DNA of 64,000 bases from Seonamhaeicola sp. S2-3 (GTDB lineage Bacteria; Bacteroidota; Bacteroidia; Flavobacteriales; Flavobacteriaceae), in NCBI RefSeq assembly GCF_001971785.1, contig NZ_CP019389.1:2429001-2493000 (forward strand). Direction: 5' to 3'. Below, in pieces: positions 30,309 through 35,677 of this stretch; position 1 is the stretch's first letter, and each line of letters begins with the position of its first letter. Under the pieces are notes generated by a model. That model was given only the letters and a program-made list of their open reading frames with translations. It made no database searches and was not told the origin of the DNA. A program made the translations under genes and the position numbers.

Positions 30309-30441
30309 ATGTTAAATTTAGGCTAAATTAAATTTTAAATACAAATTTTTATTAAATTTATACCACAACAAAGTAAAATTTAAAAGCCTATAAAACAAAT
30401 CTACATTTACTAATTTAAAAACCTAAAACCCTAAAATAACT

Positions 30442-30639
30442 ATGGCGAGAGCAATGTTAGAGTATACTAAAACTATACTTAAAAAAGTTAGTTTTGACGC
30501 TACGTTGTTTTGCAAAGAAGTACAAAAAGCAGTAACAAGATTACTGCCTTCTGAGATTGAAGAGCTTAAAATTTTTATTCATTCTCTTGTACAGCAAAAC
30601 CCAGAATTGAATCAATGTTTAATTTATTTAAAACCATAA
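30442..30639 (+). CDS. Small conserved-looking hypothetical protein (65 aa)
   Basis: 65 residues, helical and cytoplasmic, with two cysteines and a central LLPSEIEELKIFIHSLVQQNPEL helix. It starts at ATG 30442 after an A-rich leader and ends 1 nt before a strong terminator, which supports a real single-gene transcript. I do not recognise a family and assign no function. Confidence 0.75.
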   Translation: MARAMLEYTKTILKKVSFDATLFCKEVQKAVTRLLPSEIEELKIFIHSLVQQNPELNQCLIYLKP

Positions 30640-30640
30640 A

Positions 30641-30668
30641 AAAAAAGCAACCAACAGGTTGCTTTTTT
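30641..30668 (+). terminator. Terminator after the 65-aa gene
   Basis: AAAAAAGCAACC (30641-30652), loop AACA, GGTTGCTTTTTT (30657-30668), with further T residues: a 12-bp perfect stem. Confidence 0.92.
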
Positions 30669-30683
30669 TATTTAAGTAATTTC

Positions 30684-30716
30684 TTTGTAATACACTTGTA
30701 AAGTTATTTATATTTG
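30684..30716 (+). promoter_or_regulatory. Consensus Bacteroidota promoter of the MbnP/MbnH-like operon
   Basis: TTTG at 30684-30687, 21-nt spacer, TATATTTG at 30709-30716: an exact match to the TTTG / TAnnTTTG consensus. Transcription should begin near 30722-30724, only a few bases before the TTG start at 30727. Confidence 0.75.
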
Positions 30717-30726
30717 CAGCTAGATT

Positions 30727-31110
30727 TTGAAAAAGCTATTTCTTTTCATATTACTAGTTGCTTTTTTAGTAAAGCCTGTGTATAATTTATGTTATTTGGT
30801 ATATTATGAAATAAACGTAGATTATATAACAGAGGTGTTTTGTGTTAATAAAGACAAAGTAGAAATGGCTTGTAATGGTAAATGTCATTTAGCAAAACAA
30901 CTACAAGCAACCGAAAATACTACAAAAGAAGGAAAAGCAGTATTATCATTATTAGATGTGTTTTTGGTAGTTTTTTATCAAGCTACAGACAATTTTAACC
31001 TTCCAAATGCTTCAGAATTCATAAATGAAGATATCCCAAATAGTTACAAAATACTGTATAAATATAATTTTCAATCATTTCAATTTAAACCACCTCGGTT
31101 TGTTGCTTAA
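30727..31110 (+). CDS. Exported/anchored small protein with CNGKCH motif, TTG start
   Basis: 127 residues. The TTG start at 30727 is strongly constrained: an in-frame TAG lies at 30721, the hydrophobic signal/anchor (KKLFLFILLVAFLVKP) begins right after TTG, and the next in-frame Met is inside the conserved-looking CNGKCH segment. Residues ~49-62 (DKVEMACNGKCHLAKQL) carry C-x3-C-H, a possible metal or redox site. Another cysteine occurs at VFCVNKD. The C-terminal half is extracytoplasmic with no further motif. It is first in the operon ahead of MbnP- and MbnH-like genes, so a link to copper or other metal handling is plausible but inferred. I know of no defined function. Confidence 0.75.
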   Translation: MKKLFLFILLVAFLVKPVYNLCYLVYYEINVDYITEVFCVNKDKVEMACNGKCHLAKQLQATENTTKEGKAVLSLLDVFLVVFYQATDNFNLPNASEFINEDIPNSYKILYKYNFQSFQFKPPRFVA

Positions 31111-31234
31111 TTCTCTATAAGCAATAAGGTAAGTACATACTACTTTACCAACTTAAAATTACTATTTAATCAAATAAAGAAAAACTGTAGTAAGCATATA
31201 CTATGGTAATGCTGTACTATATAAAAAACTAAAA

Positions 31235-32032
31235 ATGAAAATTATAAAATTTACATTTGCGCTTTTATTATGCGCAGTTATATCGTCATGTTCATCAAAT
31301 GATGACGATGTAGAAGATTTAACAGGTCAAACAGGAACTTTAATATTAAAATTTGATAACGGGGTAGGAGGTAATGATTTTACCTTTGGAACTACCTACA
31401 ACAAGTCTAATAACGAATCATATAAACTAGAAACCTTAAAGTATATAATAAGTAACGTTAGCTTAAAAGATGCAGAAGGTAATTCATATACTTATCCAAC
31501 AGAAAAAAATATTTTCATTGTAGATGAAGCCAATGGAAATAATGCAGGAGAAATATATGTAACATTAGAAGATGTTGATGCAGCTAATTATACTGAAATT
31601 ACGTTTGGAATTGGCGTAGACCAAGAAAGATACCAATTAGGAGCCGAAGGACAAGGAGATTTTTTAGAAGAAGCACAAGATGCAGGTATGTTATGGGCTT
31701 GGGCTACAGGCTATAGGTTTATACGTTTAGATGGAACCTATTCTAGTGATACTGTTACAGATGAAGGTTTAGCAATTCATATGGGTAGTGTTGGAACTAC
31801 TTTAGATAATTACAAAGAAGTTACATTAACATTGCCAAATACGGTATTAGTTCGTGAAGATGCTAGTCCGCAAATACATATAAAAGCTGATATAGCAAAG
31901 GTTTTTGATGGTGAAACTTCAGTAAACTTCTCTGATGGGTATAACCAAGTTCATACTAGTGCAGAAACAACACCAGTTATTGCAAATAACGTAAAAGGTA
32001 TTTTCTCTGTACATCATGTACATAATGACTAA
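31235..32032 (+). CDS. MbnP-family copper-linked lipoprotein
   Basis: 265 residues with a lipoprotein signal (AVISSC). The fold matches the MbnP family: TGTLILKFDNGVG strand, LKYIISNVSL, TEITFGIGVD, QDAGMLWAWATGYRFIRLDG, IHMGSVGTT and a His-rich end (HHVHND). Trp154 and Trp156 in MLWAWATGY lie where, in Methylosinus MbnP, a tryptophan is oxidised to kynurenine by its partner MbnH. The adjacent diheme peroxidase gene (62 nt downstream) is the expected MbnH-like partner. The family is tied to periplasmic copper binding. No methanobactin genes are nearby, so this would be the non-methanobactin version seen widely in bacteria. Confidence 0.85.
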   Translation: MKIIKFTFALLLCAVISSCSSNDDDVEDLTGQTGTLILKFDNGVGGNDFTFGTTYNKSNNESYKLETLKYIISNVSLKDAEGNSYTYPTEKNIFIVDEANGNNAGEIYVTLEDVDAANYTEITFGIGVDQERYQLGAEGQGDFLEEAQDAGMLWAWATGYRFIRLDGTYSSDTVTDEGLAIHMGSVGTTLDNYKEVTLTLPNTVLVREDASPQIHIKADIAKVFDGETSVNFSDGYNQVHTSAETTPVIANNVKGIFSVHHVHND

Positions 32033-32093
32033 AATTTGTTGGGTTAAGATTAGGAAGTGATGTTTAATCACTTCCTAATTATTCCGTAAAAAA

Positions 32094-33137
32094 ATGAGAA
32101 AAATACTTATAATAGTTGTTTTTATTCAGGTCTTATTGGTGTCTTGTTCTAAAGAAGAAGGTGGTTATGAACCCAAACCTTTAAGTTTAGAAATACCGTC
32201 AAATTTTCCAGAAATCGTATATGATTTAGAAAATAATCCTTTAACAGAAGAAGGCGTTGCTTTAGGAAAAGCTTTATTTTATGAAGGAAAACTGTCTGCA
32301 AATAATGCTATACCCTGTGCTTTTTGTCATGAACAGGCATTTGCTTTTACGCATCATGGTCATACATTAAGTCATGGTGTAAATGGGGGGATAGGATTTC
32401 GTAATACACCTCCTATTCAAAATATGGCATTTCAAAAAGAGTTTATGTGGGATGGCGCAGCTACTCATTTAGATCTTCAACCCATAATACCTCTTACAAG
32501 CGACATAGAAATGGGAGAAACATTATCAAACGTTATTAATAAATTACAAGCAGACTCTTATTATAAACAACAATTTAGTAAAGCATTTGAAAATGGTGAA
32601 ATAAATTCATCAAATATGCTTAAAGCACTGTCTCAGTTTATGATTACTATGGTTTCAGGTAATTCTAAGTACGATAAATATGTTAGAAATGAAGATGGTG
32701 TAACACTAACTCAAGAAGAATTAAATGGTTTAGAAATTTTTAAAAATAAATGCGCTTCTTGTCATGCTACCGATTTTTTTTCAGATCAATCTTATAGAAA
32801 TACAGGTTTGCCAATAAACCCAAAACTGAATGATAAAGGACGTTACGTGATTTTTGAAAATCTAGACGATTTGTACAAGTTTAAAGTGCCTAGTTTAAGA
32901 AATATTGAAGTAACAGCACCTTATATGCACGACGGAAGATTTTTTACACTAGAGGCCGTTTTAGATTTTTACGATTCAGGAATGGTTGATAATGGTAATG
33001 TAGACCCATCATTAAAGCGAGAGGATGGTTCTTTTGGTATAACACTTTCAACAAGTGAAAAAGAAAGCCTTATTGCTTTTTTAAAAACATTAACAGATAA
33101 CGAATTTTTAAATGATGAAAGATTTTCTGAGTATTAA
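32094..33137 (+). CDS. MbnH-like diheme cytochrome c peroxidase, lipoprotein
   Basis: 347 residues with a lipoprotein signal (LLVSC). Two c-type haem motifs, CAFCH (Cys75-Cys78-His79) and CASCH (Cys220-Cys223-His224), and the PYMHDGRF segment near residue 280 place it in the MauG / bacterial cytochrome c peroxidase superfamily. FRNTPPIQNMAFQKEFMWDG is typical of the shorter MbnH-type members. It probably forms a high-valent di-haem state and oxidises tryptophan on the MbnP-like protein encoded just upstream; peroxide detoxification is the alternative. Its end overlaps the next gene by 26 nt. Confidence 0.88.
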   Translation: MRKILIIVVFIQVLLVSCSKEEGGYEPKPLSLEIPSNFPEIVYDLENNPLTEEGVALGKALFYEGKLSANNAIPCAFCHEQAFAFTHHGHTLSHGVNGGIGFRNTPPIQNMAFQKEFMWDGAATHLDLQPIIPLTSDIEMGETLSNVINKLQADSYYKQQFSKAFENGEINSSNMLKALSQFMITMVSGNSKYDKYVRNEDGVTLTQEELNGLEIFKNKCASCHATDFFSDQSYRNTGLPINPKLNDKGRYVIFENLDDLYKFKVPSLRNIEVTAPYMHDGRFFTLEAVLDFYDSGMVDNGNVDPSLKREDGSFGITLSTSEKESLIAFLKTLTDNEFLNDERFSEY

Positions 33138-34113
33138 TAAAAAAGGCTTAATAACAATGTTATTTGTGTTAGTTTTAGTTAAATCTAATGCTTGCGAACA
33201 TCAACCAAGGCTACATGAACCACAAACAAATTTTGGGGTTTTGTGTGATTTATGTAGTTGCTCTACTAGTAGTGGTAGCATGGGCTTTGGTACATTAAAC
33301 AATGCTAATTTTGTTGGGTTTCGTTACATCTATCAAACATTCGAGTCTCAAAATGGTATTTTTCAAAATTCACCAAAAAGCAAAGAAACCTTTAACACCT
33401 ACCAACTTTGGGGGCAAATTCCTGTAAAAAATAATTTTTATTTCAGCGTTAATTTACCGTATCAAGATTTAAACCGAACATTAAATCAAACAACAGAGAA
33501 TATTAATGGTATTGGAGATGCTAATATAATTGCATGGTATAAATTACCACTTTTAAAAAAGAAAGAAAGTGGTGGAACCGTAGATTATAATACTACAAGT
33601 GAAACTACAGGACATTCATTGTTATTTGGTTTAGGAGTAAAATTGCCAACAGGTAAGTTTGAAGAACTTTTAGCCGATAATGTTAATCCAGGATTTCAGG
33701 TGGGGACTGGGAGTTTTGATGGTATTTTATCTGCTGGTTATAGTTATGCAGGCAAAAAAATAGGAGTTAATACTCTACTATCATATTACCTAAAAGGTGA
33801 AAATAAAAACGAATATAAGTTTGGAGATCAAATTAGTTTTTCTGCTAATGCTTATACAGTTTTTAATACTAATAAAGTGAATTTTATGCCATTTGTGGGA
33901 GTTTCGGGAGATGCATACAACAAAATAACACAATATGGTGAAACATTAAATGATACTGATGGTAATGTAATTAACGCTTCATTAGGAACAGAAGTAAATA
34001 TTAAAACCTTTGTTTTGGGGGTTAATTTCACAAAACCAATACACCAAGATTTATTTGGAGGAAATGTAAAGTCTAAAAACAGATTAACCTTATATTTAAA
34101 TTATAGTCTATAA
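33112..34113 (+). CDS. Outer-membrane transporter-like protein with a CxxCxC motif
   Basis: 333 residues, signal peptide ending near KSNA, then mature CEHQPRLHEP and CDLCSCSTSSGSMGFGT before a run of amphipathic beta strands (FNTYQLWGQIPV, FYFSVNLPYQDLNR, LLFGLGVKLPTGKF, NRLTLYLNYSL). It looks like a 10-14 strand outer-membrane barrel of the 'transporter/phenol-degradation MetA-like' type. The CDLCSC cluster near the mature N-terminus is a likely metal or disulfide site. The start overlaps the peroxidase gene by 26 nt, so translation is probably coupled. A role in moving or sensing copper with MbnP/MbnH is inferred only from the operon. Confidence 0.72.
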   Translation: MMKDFLSINKKGLITMLFVLVLVKSNACEHQPRLHEPQTNFGVLCDLCSCSTSSGSMGFGTLNNANFVGFRYIYQTFESQNGIFQNSPKSKETFNTYQLWGQIPVKNNFYFSVNLPYQDLNRTLNQTTENINGIGDANIIAWYKLPLLKKKESGGTVDYNTTSETTGHSLLFGLGVKLPTGKFEELLADNVNPGFQVGTGSFDGILSAGYSYAGKKIGVNTLLSYYLKGENKNEYKFGDQISFSANAYTVFNTNKVNFMPFVGVSGDAYNKITQYGETLNDTDGNVINASLGTEVNIKTFVLGVNFTKPIHQDLFGGNVKSKNRLTLYLNYSL

Positions 34114-34162: not shown

Positions 34163-35095
34163 TTATTTAGGTAGAGGGCTAATTATTTTTACATCCTGAA
34201 ATGCTATAGCCCCCCTTACTATTCCAGCAATTACATCTTGTAGTGCTTCTATTATTTGCAATTTTAGTTCACTTTTATGATAAATTATGCTTACTTCTCT
34301 AGCTGGAGAAGGCTCATTAAAGTAATGCAAATGGTCTTTTTCTTTAATATCTAAAGTATGTAGATAAGGAAGTAGGGTCATACCTAAACCTTCATCAGAA
34401 AGTTTAATAAGGGTTTCAATACTACCACTTTCTAATTGAAATTTATCATCTGTATTTTTTTTAAAAGCCTTACATAAATTAATAACACCATCTCTAAAAC
34501 AGTGTCCATCTTCAAGTAAAAGCATATCATCAACTTCTAAATCACTACTGTCTATTTTTTGTTTTCCATACAACCTGTGGTTTTTAGGAATATAGCCTAC
34601 AAAAGGTTCAAAATAAATTACCCGTTCTTTAATGTTTTCATCTTCTAAGGGGGTGGCAGCAATAGCTGCATCTAAATGTCCGTCTTTAATTCTAGCAATA
34701 ATATCCTCGGTAGTTAATTCTTCAATTTTTAGCTTAACTTTTGGGTGTTTTTTAATAAACGTTTTTAAAAACATAGGTAACAGTGTTGGCATTATAGTTG
34801 GAATAATTCCTAACTTAAACTCGCCACCAATAAACCCTTTTTGTTGGTCTACAATATCTTGTATTCTATAAGATTCATTAACAATATTTCTAGCTTGAGT
34901 AACTATTTTTTTACCAACTTCAGTTAGTTCTATAGGTTTTTTGCTGCGGTCAAAAATCTGAACATTAAGTTGGTCTTCTAACTTTTGAATTTGCATACTT
35001 AATGTAGGCTGTGTTACATAACATTTTTCGGCTGCTTTTGTAAAGTTTTGATGTTCAGCTACAGCCAAAACATAATATAGTTGCGTAATTGTCAT
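34163..35095 (-). CDS. oxyR: OxyR, LysR-family peroxide sensor
   Basis: 310 residues from the ATG at 35095; two further ATGs lie up to 9 nt upstream. The N-terminal LysR helix-turn-helix (FTKAAEKCYVTQPTLSMQIQKLE) is followed by the effector domain. With this start the redox pair in GHCFRDGVINLC falls at Cys199 and Cys208, the exact positions of the peroxide-sensing disulfide in E. coli OxyR. It should activate antioxidant genes on oxidation. The divergent neighbour is a Dps ferritin, a classic OxyR target, with only ~100 nt between the start codons. Confidence 0.93.
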   Translation of the reverse strand: MTITQLYYVLAVAEHQNFTKAAEKCYVTQPTLSMQIQKLEDQLNVQIFDRSKKPIELTEVGKKIVTQARNIVNESYRIQDIVDQQKGFIGGEFKLGIIPTIMPTLLPMFLKTFIKKHPKVKLKIEELTTEDIIARIKDGHLDAAIAATPLEDENIKERVIYFEPFVGYIPKNHRLYGKQKIDSSDLEVDDMLLLEDGHCFRDGVINLCKAFKKNTDDKFQLESGSIETLIKLSDEGLGMTLLPYLHTLDIKEKDHLHYFNEPSPAREVSIIYHKSELKLQIIEALQDVIAGIVRGAIAFQDVKIISPLPK

Positions 35096-35167
35096 ACTCA
35101 TCAATTTAGGTTATAAAAATATAAAAACAATCAATAAAAATTATGATAAAAACATGTAATAATAAGT

Positions 35168-35197: not shown

Positions 35198-35677
35198 ATG
35201 ACATTAAATAGTATAGGATTAGACAGTGCAGAAACAAAGGATTTAGCCAATGATTTAAATCAATTGTTAGCCAATTTTCAAATTTATTATCAAAACCTTA
35301 GAGGTATTCATTGGAATATAAAAGGGAAAAGTTTTTTTAATTTACATGAAAAGTTTGAAGAACTTTACACAGATGCTAATGTGAAAGTTGATGAAATAGC
35401 AGAGCGTATTTTAACCTTAGGTGAAACGCCATTACATACTTTTGAAGATTATTCTGCTGCAGCAAAAGTACCTGTAGGAAAAAATATTTCTGAAGATGTA
35501 AAAGCAGTAAGATTAATTGTTAATTCTTTAGTAGAATTACTTAAAATAGAAAGAGCTATACTTGAAAAAGCAGGAGATGTTAATGATGAGGGTACTAATA
35601 GTATGATGAGCGATTTTATTACAGAACAAGAAAAAACTGTTTGGATGATGAAAGCGTGGTTAAGTGAAGAGGTTTAG
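35198..35677 (+). CDS. dps: Dps-family ferritin-like DNA/iron protection protein
   Basis: 159 residues, a four-helix ferritin-like protein of normal Dps length. The ferroxidase residues of the family are in place: His in GIHWNIKG, His in NLHEKFEELY, and Asp/Glu in VKVDEIAERI. It assembles into 12-mers that oxidise and store Fe(II) using peroxide, protecting DNA. It is divergent from oxyR with a -7 element in between, implying peroxide induction. A bidirectional terminator follows. Confidence 0.93.
   Translation: MTLNSIGLDSAETKDLANDLNQLLANFQIYYQNLRGIHWNIKGKSFFNLHEKFEELYTDANVKVDEIAERILTLGETPLHTFEDYSAAAKVPVGKNISEDVKAVRLIVNSLVELLKIERAILEKAGDVNDEGTNSMMSDFITEQEKTVWMMKAWLSEEV

Follow-up and report, generated by a model that had tools for sequence, protein, structure and literature searches.

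The stretch analyzed here (the window) comprises 64,000 nucleotides of the flavobacterial chromosome (3.75 Mb) of Seonamhaeicola sp. S2-3 (contig NZ_CP019389.1, positions 2,429,001 to 2,493,000), and the system under study is a set of four consecutive plus-strand genes at 30727-34113, designated C, P, H and B in that order. C codes for a small protein with a CNGKCH motif, P for an MbnP-like lipoprotein, H for an MbnH-like enzyme and B for a barrel protein with a CDLCSC motif (Table 1). The four genes were found as a first-pass annotation of the sequence had described them, including Trp154 and Trp156 of P and a start of B that overlaps H; the overlap measures 26 bp.

Table 1. Coordinates of the four-gene set, its motifs and nearby features in the window.
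Feature	Position	Strand	Description
66-aa open reading frame	30423-30638		between AIM24 and C
Terminator-like hairpin, AAAAAAAGCAACC..GGTTGCTTTTTTT	30640-30669		intrinsic-terminator-like; between the 66-aa open reading frame and C
TATATTTG	30709-30716	+	fits TAnnTTTG; just 5' of C
C	30727-31110	+	127 aa, TTG start; predicted CutF/CruR-like copper-sensing leader peptide
CxxxC of C (CNGKC, C49-C53)	30871-30885	+	codons of the motif
Pro-Pro of C (122-123)	31090-31095	+	codons of the motif
C-P intergenic region	31111-31234	+	124 nt; expected site of copper-dependent control
P	31235-32032	+	265 aa; MbnP-family lipoprotein
M152, W154, W156, H182 of P	31688-31690 (M152), 31694-31696 (W154), 31778-31780 (H182)	+	putative kynurenine-copper site
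H215, H261/H263 of P	31877-31879 (H215), 32015-32023 (H261/H263)	+	extra His set
H	32094-33137	+	347 aa; MbnH/MauG-type di-heme enzyme
B	33112-34113	+	333 aa; outer-membrane beta-barrel with flexible N-terminal tail
CDLCSC of B (C45-D46-x-C48-x-C50)	33244-33261	+	
LysR/OxyR-type gene	34163-35104	-	adjoins B
Dps-type ferritin gene	35198-35677	+	near the four genes, beyond the OxyR-type gene

Conservation was assessed in 80 named Flavobacteriaceae loci with flanks of up to 10 kb; these were chosen by MbnP similarity, so that counts in this set are not an unbiased rate. The order C-P-H-B was kept on one strand in 80/80, usually with an H-B overlap of 23 or 26 bp, and the flanks of the four genes varied between genera (Winogradskyella, Kordia, Flavobacterium, Polaribacter, Flagellimonas and Zunongwangia). 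A family search gave about 25 of 30 loci with C, P, H and B together; four MbnPs (in loci L007, L022, L027 and L029) lacked C and B and also the C-terminal histidines described below. An unselected sample of the phylum (345 Bacteroidota genomes) contained matches to C in 127 genomes, to B in 83 and to MbnP in 85. C lay upstream on the same strand for 43 of the 88 B matches, at about 2-3 kb with P and H in between in 29 cases and within 1 kb in 14. C and B were both near 31 of the 105 MbnP matches, C only near 12 and B only near 5; for the best 52 of the 105, the counts were 29 with both, 10 with C only, 1 with B only and 12 with neither. Among the loci fetched, the C-P-H-B set was also found in several further families of the phylum, and two loci (L218 and L220) had the permuted order C-B-P-H. 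The joint conservation by which the first-pass annotation proposed to judge the set was borne out both in the 80 loci and in the unselected sample. Among the B matches directly adjacent to C, those of L223-L228 belong to another barrel type, only weakly related, that has RPDGHAPI...MGDH but lacks CDxC; that of L224 matches PF13557 (1.2e-6), and Sco1 and PCuAC follow this barrel in L223-L227. The RPDGHAPI..MGDH.H family, with its Met-rich start, is preceded by C in L223-L228, L147 and L152. A plasmid collection yielded one remote MbnP match (Deinococcus) and one partial barrel match.

P belongs to the MbnP family PF20243 (E 5.8e-47; 160.5 bits against a cut-off of 27) and is the single MbnP of the source genome by TIGR04052. 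W154 and W156 lie in GMLWAWATGY, and P aligns with Methylosinus MbnP (PDB 7l6g) at GMxWxW and xHxGS. M152, W154, W156 and H182 were invariant in 83/83 core rows and were kept, bar one M152, in all compared WxW-type MbnPs whatever their neighbours. The lipobox Cys19 is followed by an acidic stretch like a lipoprotein export signal (LES), S-[SN]-D-D-D; at least two acidic residues stood at +3 to +6 in 79 of 81 P proteins and in 48 of 80 H proteins. Surface-lipoprotein export signals known in Bacteroidota are SDDDD, SDDFE and C-x-K-(D/E)2 (PMC5080379), and P is probably surface-exposed rather than periplasmic. A surface pair has a precedent, since both SACCP and MopE are located on the surface of Methylococcus cells (PMC3912023).

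A second MbnP-MbnH type was seen beside SUF genes (SufB, SufC, SufD and a SufA-like gene) in L118-L125, L129 and L131. The MbnPs of these loci are mostly without WxW and carry GGYH[FY]M instead, so that a kynurenine site is doubtful in them; they were used for contrast with the WxW type. The label 'MbnP' in L153 and L158 was rejected as a false positive; the proteins are YtkA-like Met-rich lipoproteins.

H was matched best by the MbnH family TIGR04039 (1.9e-70) and also by PF03150 (1e-51). The designation of the two genes as an MbnP/MbnH pair is supported. The heme motifs of H are CAFCH (75-79) and CASCH (220-224), its lipoprotein Cys is Cys18, and C75, C78, H79, C220, C223, H224 and Y293 were kept in 80-81 of 81 sequences. 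Y293 (81/81) replaces the axial-ligand Met of bacterial cytochrome c peroxidases; it was aligned to a Tyr of PDB 6e1c (E 1.5e-41) and to the Met of 1nml.

Neither B nor C, searched as single sequences, gave a family match in profile searches. The AlphaFold model of B (predicted local distance difference test, pLDDT, 83.7) has 13 strand elements and forms a barrel of about 12 strands. CDxCxC was kept in 81/81 B proteins and falls in a disordered N-terminal stretch (pLDDT <50), as would be expected of a periplasmic tail. The closest folds were the COG4313 channel 4rl8 (Z 24.5; root-mean-square deviation 2.5 over 244 aligned residues) and FapF (Z 23.9), the fold being shared over about 240 residues; the copper-transport barrel PcoB was also among the matches (Z 13.2). 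PF13557 did not match B of the window and matched 4 of 33 relatives (best 1.4e-10). B differs from the COG4313 and FapF proteins by its CDxCxC tail, its copper gene neighbours and the lack of a Pfam match of its own. The outer-membrane pore suggested earlier is likely.

The presence of B was mirrored in P. The C-terminal HxH (H261/H263) was found in 94 of 96 barrel-linked MbnPs and in 0 of 30 barrel-less ones, and H215 in 91 of 93 and about 3 of 30, respectively. In a maximum-likelihood phylogeny of 65 MbnPs, five changes were required for linkage to B and four for HxH, so that their agreement does not reflect one single clade. The simplest reading is that the extra histidines would form a further site, for metal or for docking, that serves only in combination with B, and their covariation with the barrel suggests that MbnP may hand copper to it.

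C heads its gene set, on the same strand and directly upstream of the copper genes; the gap to the next gene had a median of 115 nt in 164 loci and measured 30-250 nt in 149 of them. The protein has C39 in addition to CxxxC, and a hydrophobic N-terminal helix. Pro-Pro lay at most 20 residues from the C terminus, mostly with 2-4 residues after it, in 164/164 distinct C proteins, as compared to 135 of 1901 control open reading frames (ORFs). CxxxC was present in 159 of the 164, at 62-71 residues (median 68) from Pro-Pro, and the sequence between the two is hardly conserved. C has no Pfam or NCBIfam family, its 127 aa are below the 170-aa limit for CutF/CruR-like proteins, and AlphaFold gave no confident fold (pLDDT 66.5; predicted template modelling score, pTM, 0.25). 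Because of the Pro-Pro, the fixed spacing, the first position and the lack of a confident fold, C was taken as a regulator and not a structural partner. CutF has CxxxC, a signal peptide and Pro-Pro, and CutF-like proteins have been counted in Bacteroidota (PMC9973294). With CruR (B. pertussis, DUF2946) and CutF (Rhodobacter), C shares a small ORF, putatively of the exported type in C, at the head of a copper operon, a Cys pair (CXXC or CxxxC), Pro-Pro near the C terminus and a conserved spacing (PMC9426467, PMC9973294). The downstream genes are similar too, as CruR homologues head operons with genes for OprC-type TonB-dependent transporters, PepSY_TM proteins, Sco, PCuAC and MbnPH (PMC9426467). 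Upstream ORFs of the RAPP/RGPP type were noted to be missing from copper genes of Bacteroidota (PMC12992588), which is consistent with a [KRH]PP variant in C. From these sequence features C is probably a CutF/CruR-like copper-sensing leader peptide, and not the periplasmic, metal-carrying partner that the first-pass annotation had made of it.

Genes near C-family members also pointed to copper. In the source genome, a C paralogue immediately precedes the gene for a TonB receptor whose best match is OprC (PDB E 7e-46). The best solved relatives of this receptor were all OprC, ACPNRMD and HxM are kept, and the score against TIGR01778 (255 bits) is below the cut-off; the copper ligands of OprC are C143, M147, H323 and M325 (PMC8610252). 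The paralogue itself (G000:C1:1034738-1035085; L136:7721-10267) has CNGKC and a Pro-Pro ending. Six barrel-less Flavobacterium-type loci (L238-L243) have the order C-YtkA-receptor-C-P-H, with CTDKMDP in the TonB-dependent receptor. This receptor, in L238-L243 as in L256, is recognized by no Pfam model; in L238-L243 OprC was its only match (E 4.6e-10), and its CTDKM and HxM line up with the ligands of OprC. An OprC-like transporter can replace B where the barrel is absent. Loci of this type, including L256, have two leader peptides per copper locus. In L170, L183 and L184 the genes behind C code for a TonB receptor and then for a PepSY_TM protein, the layout also seen in CrtA-CrpH, which serves copper supply in Bordetella (PMC13038864); the likeness is one of gene arrangement and does not establish the receptor as CrtA. 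The four genes were accompanied by Sco1 and a YHS-domain protein in L172 and by Sco1 in L234. The OprC-like receptors, PepSY_TM, Sco1, PCuAC and YHS neighbours argue for copper, and mostly for import and delivery to oxidases; together with the invariant site residues, they uphold the copper theme of the first-pass annotation.

Several observations were made beside these loci. In L171 and L172 the four genes are preceded by a second C and by genes for a protein with a YHS domain, for Sco1 and for a superoxide dismutase of the Fe/Mn type. Small genes for His-rich, lipoprotein-like products (YHAH...) lie right 3' of the copper genes in L220 (9510-9932) and L221 (7854-8300); they are possibly further copper binders, and the L220 product had no Pfam match. 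Two small ORFs of the source genome precede resistance-nodulation-division (RND) efflux genes: L137:5621-6004 (127 aa, ending ...STPPPKA; within G000:C1:58000-70000) and L138:5330-5686 (118 aa, CQGHC, ending ...LHPPRQA; within G000:C1:1639000-1650000).

Taken together, the set is best described as a variant of the kynurenine-copper pair MbnP/MbnH that comes with a barrel of its own and a CutF/CruR-like leader; copper acquisition is the best-supported role of the set. We consider it rather likely that the operon acquires copper by means of leader C, a kynurenine-bearing P modified by H, and channel B. From the observed gene linkage, residue conservation, family and fold assignments and covariation of the His set with B, copper binding, kynurenine formation, surface location, regulation and direction of flow may be pictured as follows. 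C would be translated first, and its nascent exported chain would sense copper through C49-x3-C53; stalling or release of the ribosome at the C-terminal Pro-Pro would then set the expression of the downstream genes, which, by analogy to CruR, would be off when copper is present. H, as a MauG/MbnH-like di-heme enzyme, would turn Trp154 of P into kynurenine by oxidation. The acidic export signal of P probably transfers this lipoprotein to the cell surface, where P would bind Cu(I) at M152, Kyn154 and H182 and pass the copper to B through His215, His261 and His263. B would be a TonB-independent outer-membrane channel with its CDxCxC tail on the periplasmic side, where chaperones of the Sco1/PCuAC type would take the copper over. 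This specific form, a leader-controlled importer in which a surface kynurenine MbnP docks on a small barrel and delivers Cu(I) by a barrel-specific His site with no need of TonB, is put forward only tentatively. The complete periplasm-to-surface system suggested by the first-pass annotation is an overstatement: inner-membrane and periplasmic copper handling lie outside the operon, and P looks surface-exposed rather than periplasmic.

Several points weigh against copper acquisition by such an operon, which is predicted from sequence and models. P (57.4 bits) is below the curated cut-off of 140 for the NCBIfam equivalog TIGR04052, and H (237.5 bits) is below that of 362.85 for TIGR04039. MbnP membership alone is no proof of a kynurenine site, given the SUF-locus relatives that mostly lack WxW. 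C differs from CruR by the absence of DUF2946 (PF11162), which was found neither in C of the window nor in its relatives nor in the whole genome, by its spacing (median about 68 versus 45), by [KRH]PP in place of RAPP and by its Bacteroidota host. The fold of B is that of a broad channel class with varied substrates and a weak Pfam link. The exceptions to the His set (L236 and L237) are deep, long branches, and the independent events are few. Since CutF-type leaders can also head export or detoxification genes, the direction of copper is not fixed by C alone.

This last point leads to copper tolerance or export, with P and H capturing excess surface copper, B releasing it and a CutF-like C turning the genes on. 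Genes for CutF-like proteins frequently stand ahead of RND efflux genes (PMC9973294), as do the two further Pro-Pro-ending ORFs of the source genome, and PcoB is among the fold matches of B (Z 13.2). The PcoB match is however that of a generic barrel only, the close C paralogues precede OprC-type importers, such importers replace B in MbnP/MbnH loci, and copper represses CorA and MopE, which are the counterparts of MbnP (PMC3912023); export thus appears unlikely. The idea that C is an exported, copper-carrying protein partner of P, H and B, the earlier view, would account for its three conserved Cys, hydrophobic N terminus and constant presence. It is rendered still less likely by a C-terminal half that is unconserved bar the Pro-Pro at 62-71 residues from CxxxC (164/164), by the invariable first position with a gap of about 115 nt, by the lack of a confident fold and by the occurrence of the same C family before unrelated transporters.

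A kynurenine site might also be made for a redox, peroxide-defence or other-metal role, with OxyR and Dps as partners: H resembles peroxidases, the OxyR and Dps genes adjoin the set in the window, and a superoxide dismutase lies beside the L172 set. OxyR adjoined B in only 35 of the 80 loci and Dps in 29, and OxyR occurred in only 2 of 41 loci outside AIM24 synteny. OxyR and Dps, noted earlier as adjacent, were therefore rejected as part of the system and ascribed to clade-limited local synteny; as most loci outside one clade lack them and the recurrent neighbours are copper transporters and Sco1/PCuAC, the redox role is improbable. That only P and H function together and that B and C were linked by chance operon inheritance, as the 12 of the best 52 MbnP matches without C and B might imply, is very improbable in view of the 14 loci with C and B but no P and H between them, the permuted gene orders in which the genes are still together, and the His set that tracks B.

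In its resemblance to known systems, the copper-acquisition set comes closest to the methanotroph MbnP/MbnH ('metallo-mystery pair'; 7l6g, 6e1c), with which it shares the Pfam family, MxWxW and xHxGS, and the adjacent di-heme enzyme. Manesis et al. in 2021 reportedly found the first Trp of WxW in M. trichosporium MbnP converted to kynurenine, with Cu(I) bound by His, Met and solvent. The set differs from the methanotroph pair in scoring below the NCBIfam cut-offs, in the LES-like lipoprotein start and extra His set, and in its partners, which are a CutF-like ORF and a barrel rather than methanobactin genes. The absence of methanobactin genes, claimed earlier, held at least for MbnB: TIGR04159 had no match in the source genome (99.9% complete). 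CorA/CorB of Methylomicrobium album and MopE/SACCP of Methylococcus capsulatus also combine a surface kynurenine copper protein with a di-heme partner and are copper-repressed (PMC3912023). CorA and MopE are not markedly similar to MbnP in sequence (PMC3621798) and have two His ligands, and no barrel or leader peptide is reported for them. The copper TonB receptors OprC and NosA are preceded by the same C family and stand with P and H in barrel-less loci; they are 22-stranded and TonB-dependent and have a plug, whereas B is a smaller barrel, predicted to be plug-less.

Few outer-membrane routes of copper import are known (OprC, MbnT, CrtA and FyuA; PMC12914433), and the role of MbnP and MbnH as partners has been described as unclear (PMC3621798). 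Here the pair is linked with one particular channel and with a leader predicted to sense copper, across a phylum of bacteria that have no methanobactin and are common in marine, soil and host-associated settings. The set would point to a way in which copper proteins on the surface can supply a TonB-independent channel, and the function of kynurenine copper proteins would become testable outside methanotrophs, with H215, H261, H263, CDxCxC, CxxxC and Pro-Pro offered as individually mutable residues.

The surroundings of the operon gave minor results. The PADLOC scan found no relevant system. No TonB receptor figured in the VIA-align list, an absence that carries no weight as evidence. The C-P gap had no Rfam match, and its RNA fold energies were low, but those of the control P-H junction were equally low. 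The 66-aa ORF upstream of C is conserved in one clade and ends at the terminator-like hairpin. This hairpin was called on the minus strand; its stem, almost a perfect palindrome, precedes T on the plus strand, and the terminator count in the region was not above that in shuffled sequences. It might insulate the operon, though the evidence for a terminator is weak. A sigma-70 promoter scan gave matches below chance level, and full -33/-7 promoter pairs were not enriched upstream of C (3 of 80 loci versus 1.05 in shuffled sequences). The consensus of the Bacteroidota -7 promoter element is TAnnTTTG; in the 80 loci, TAnnTTTG clustered 60-90 bp upstream of the called C start.

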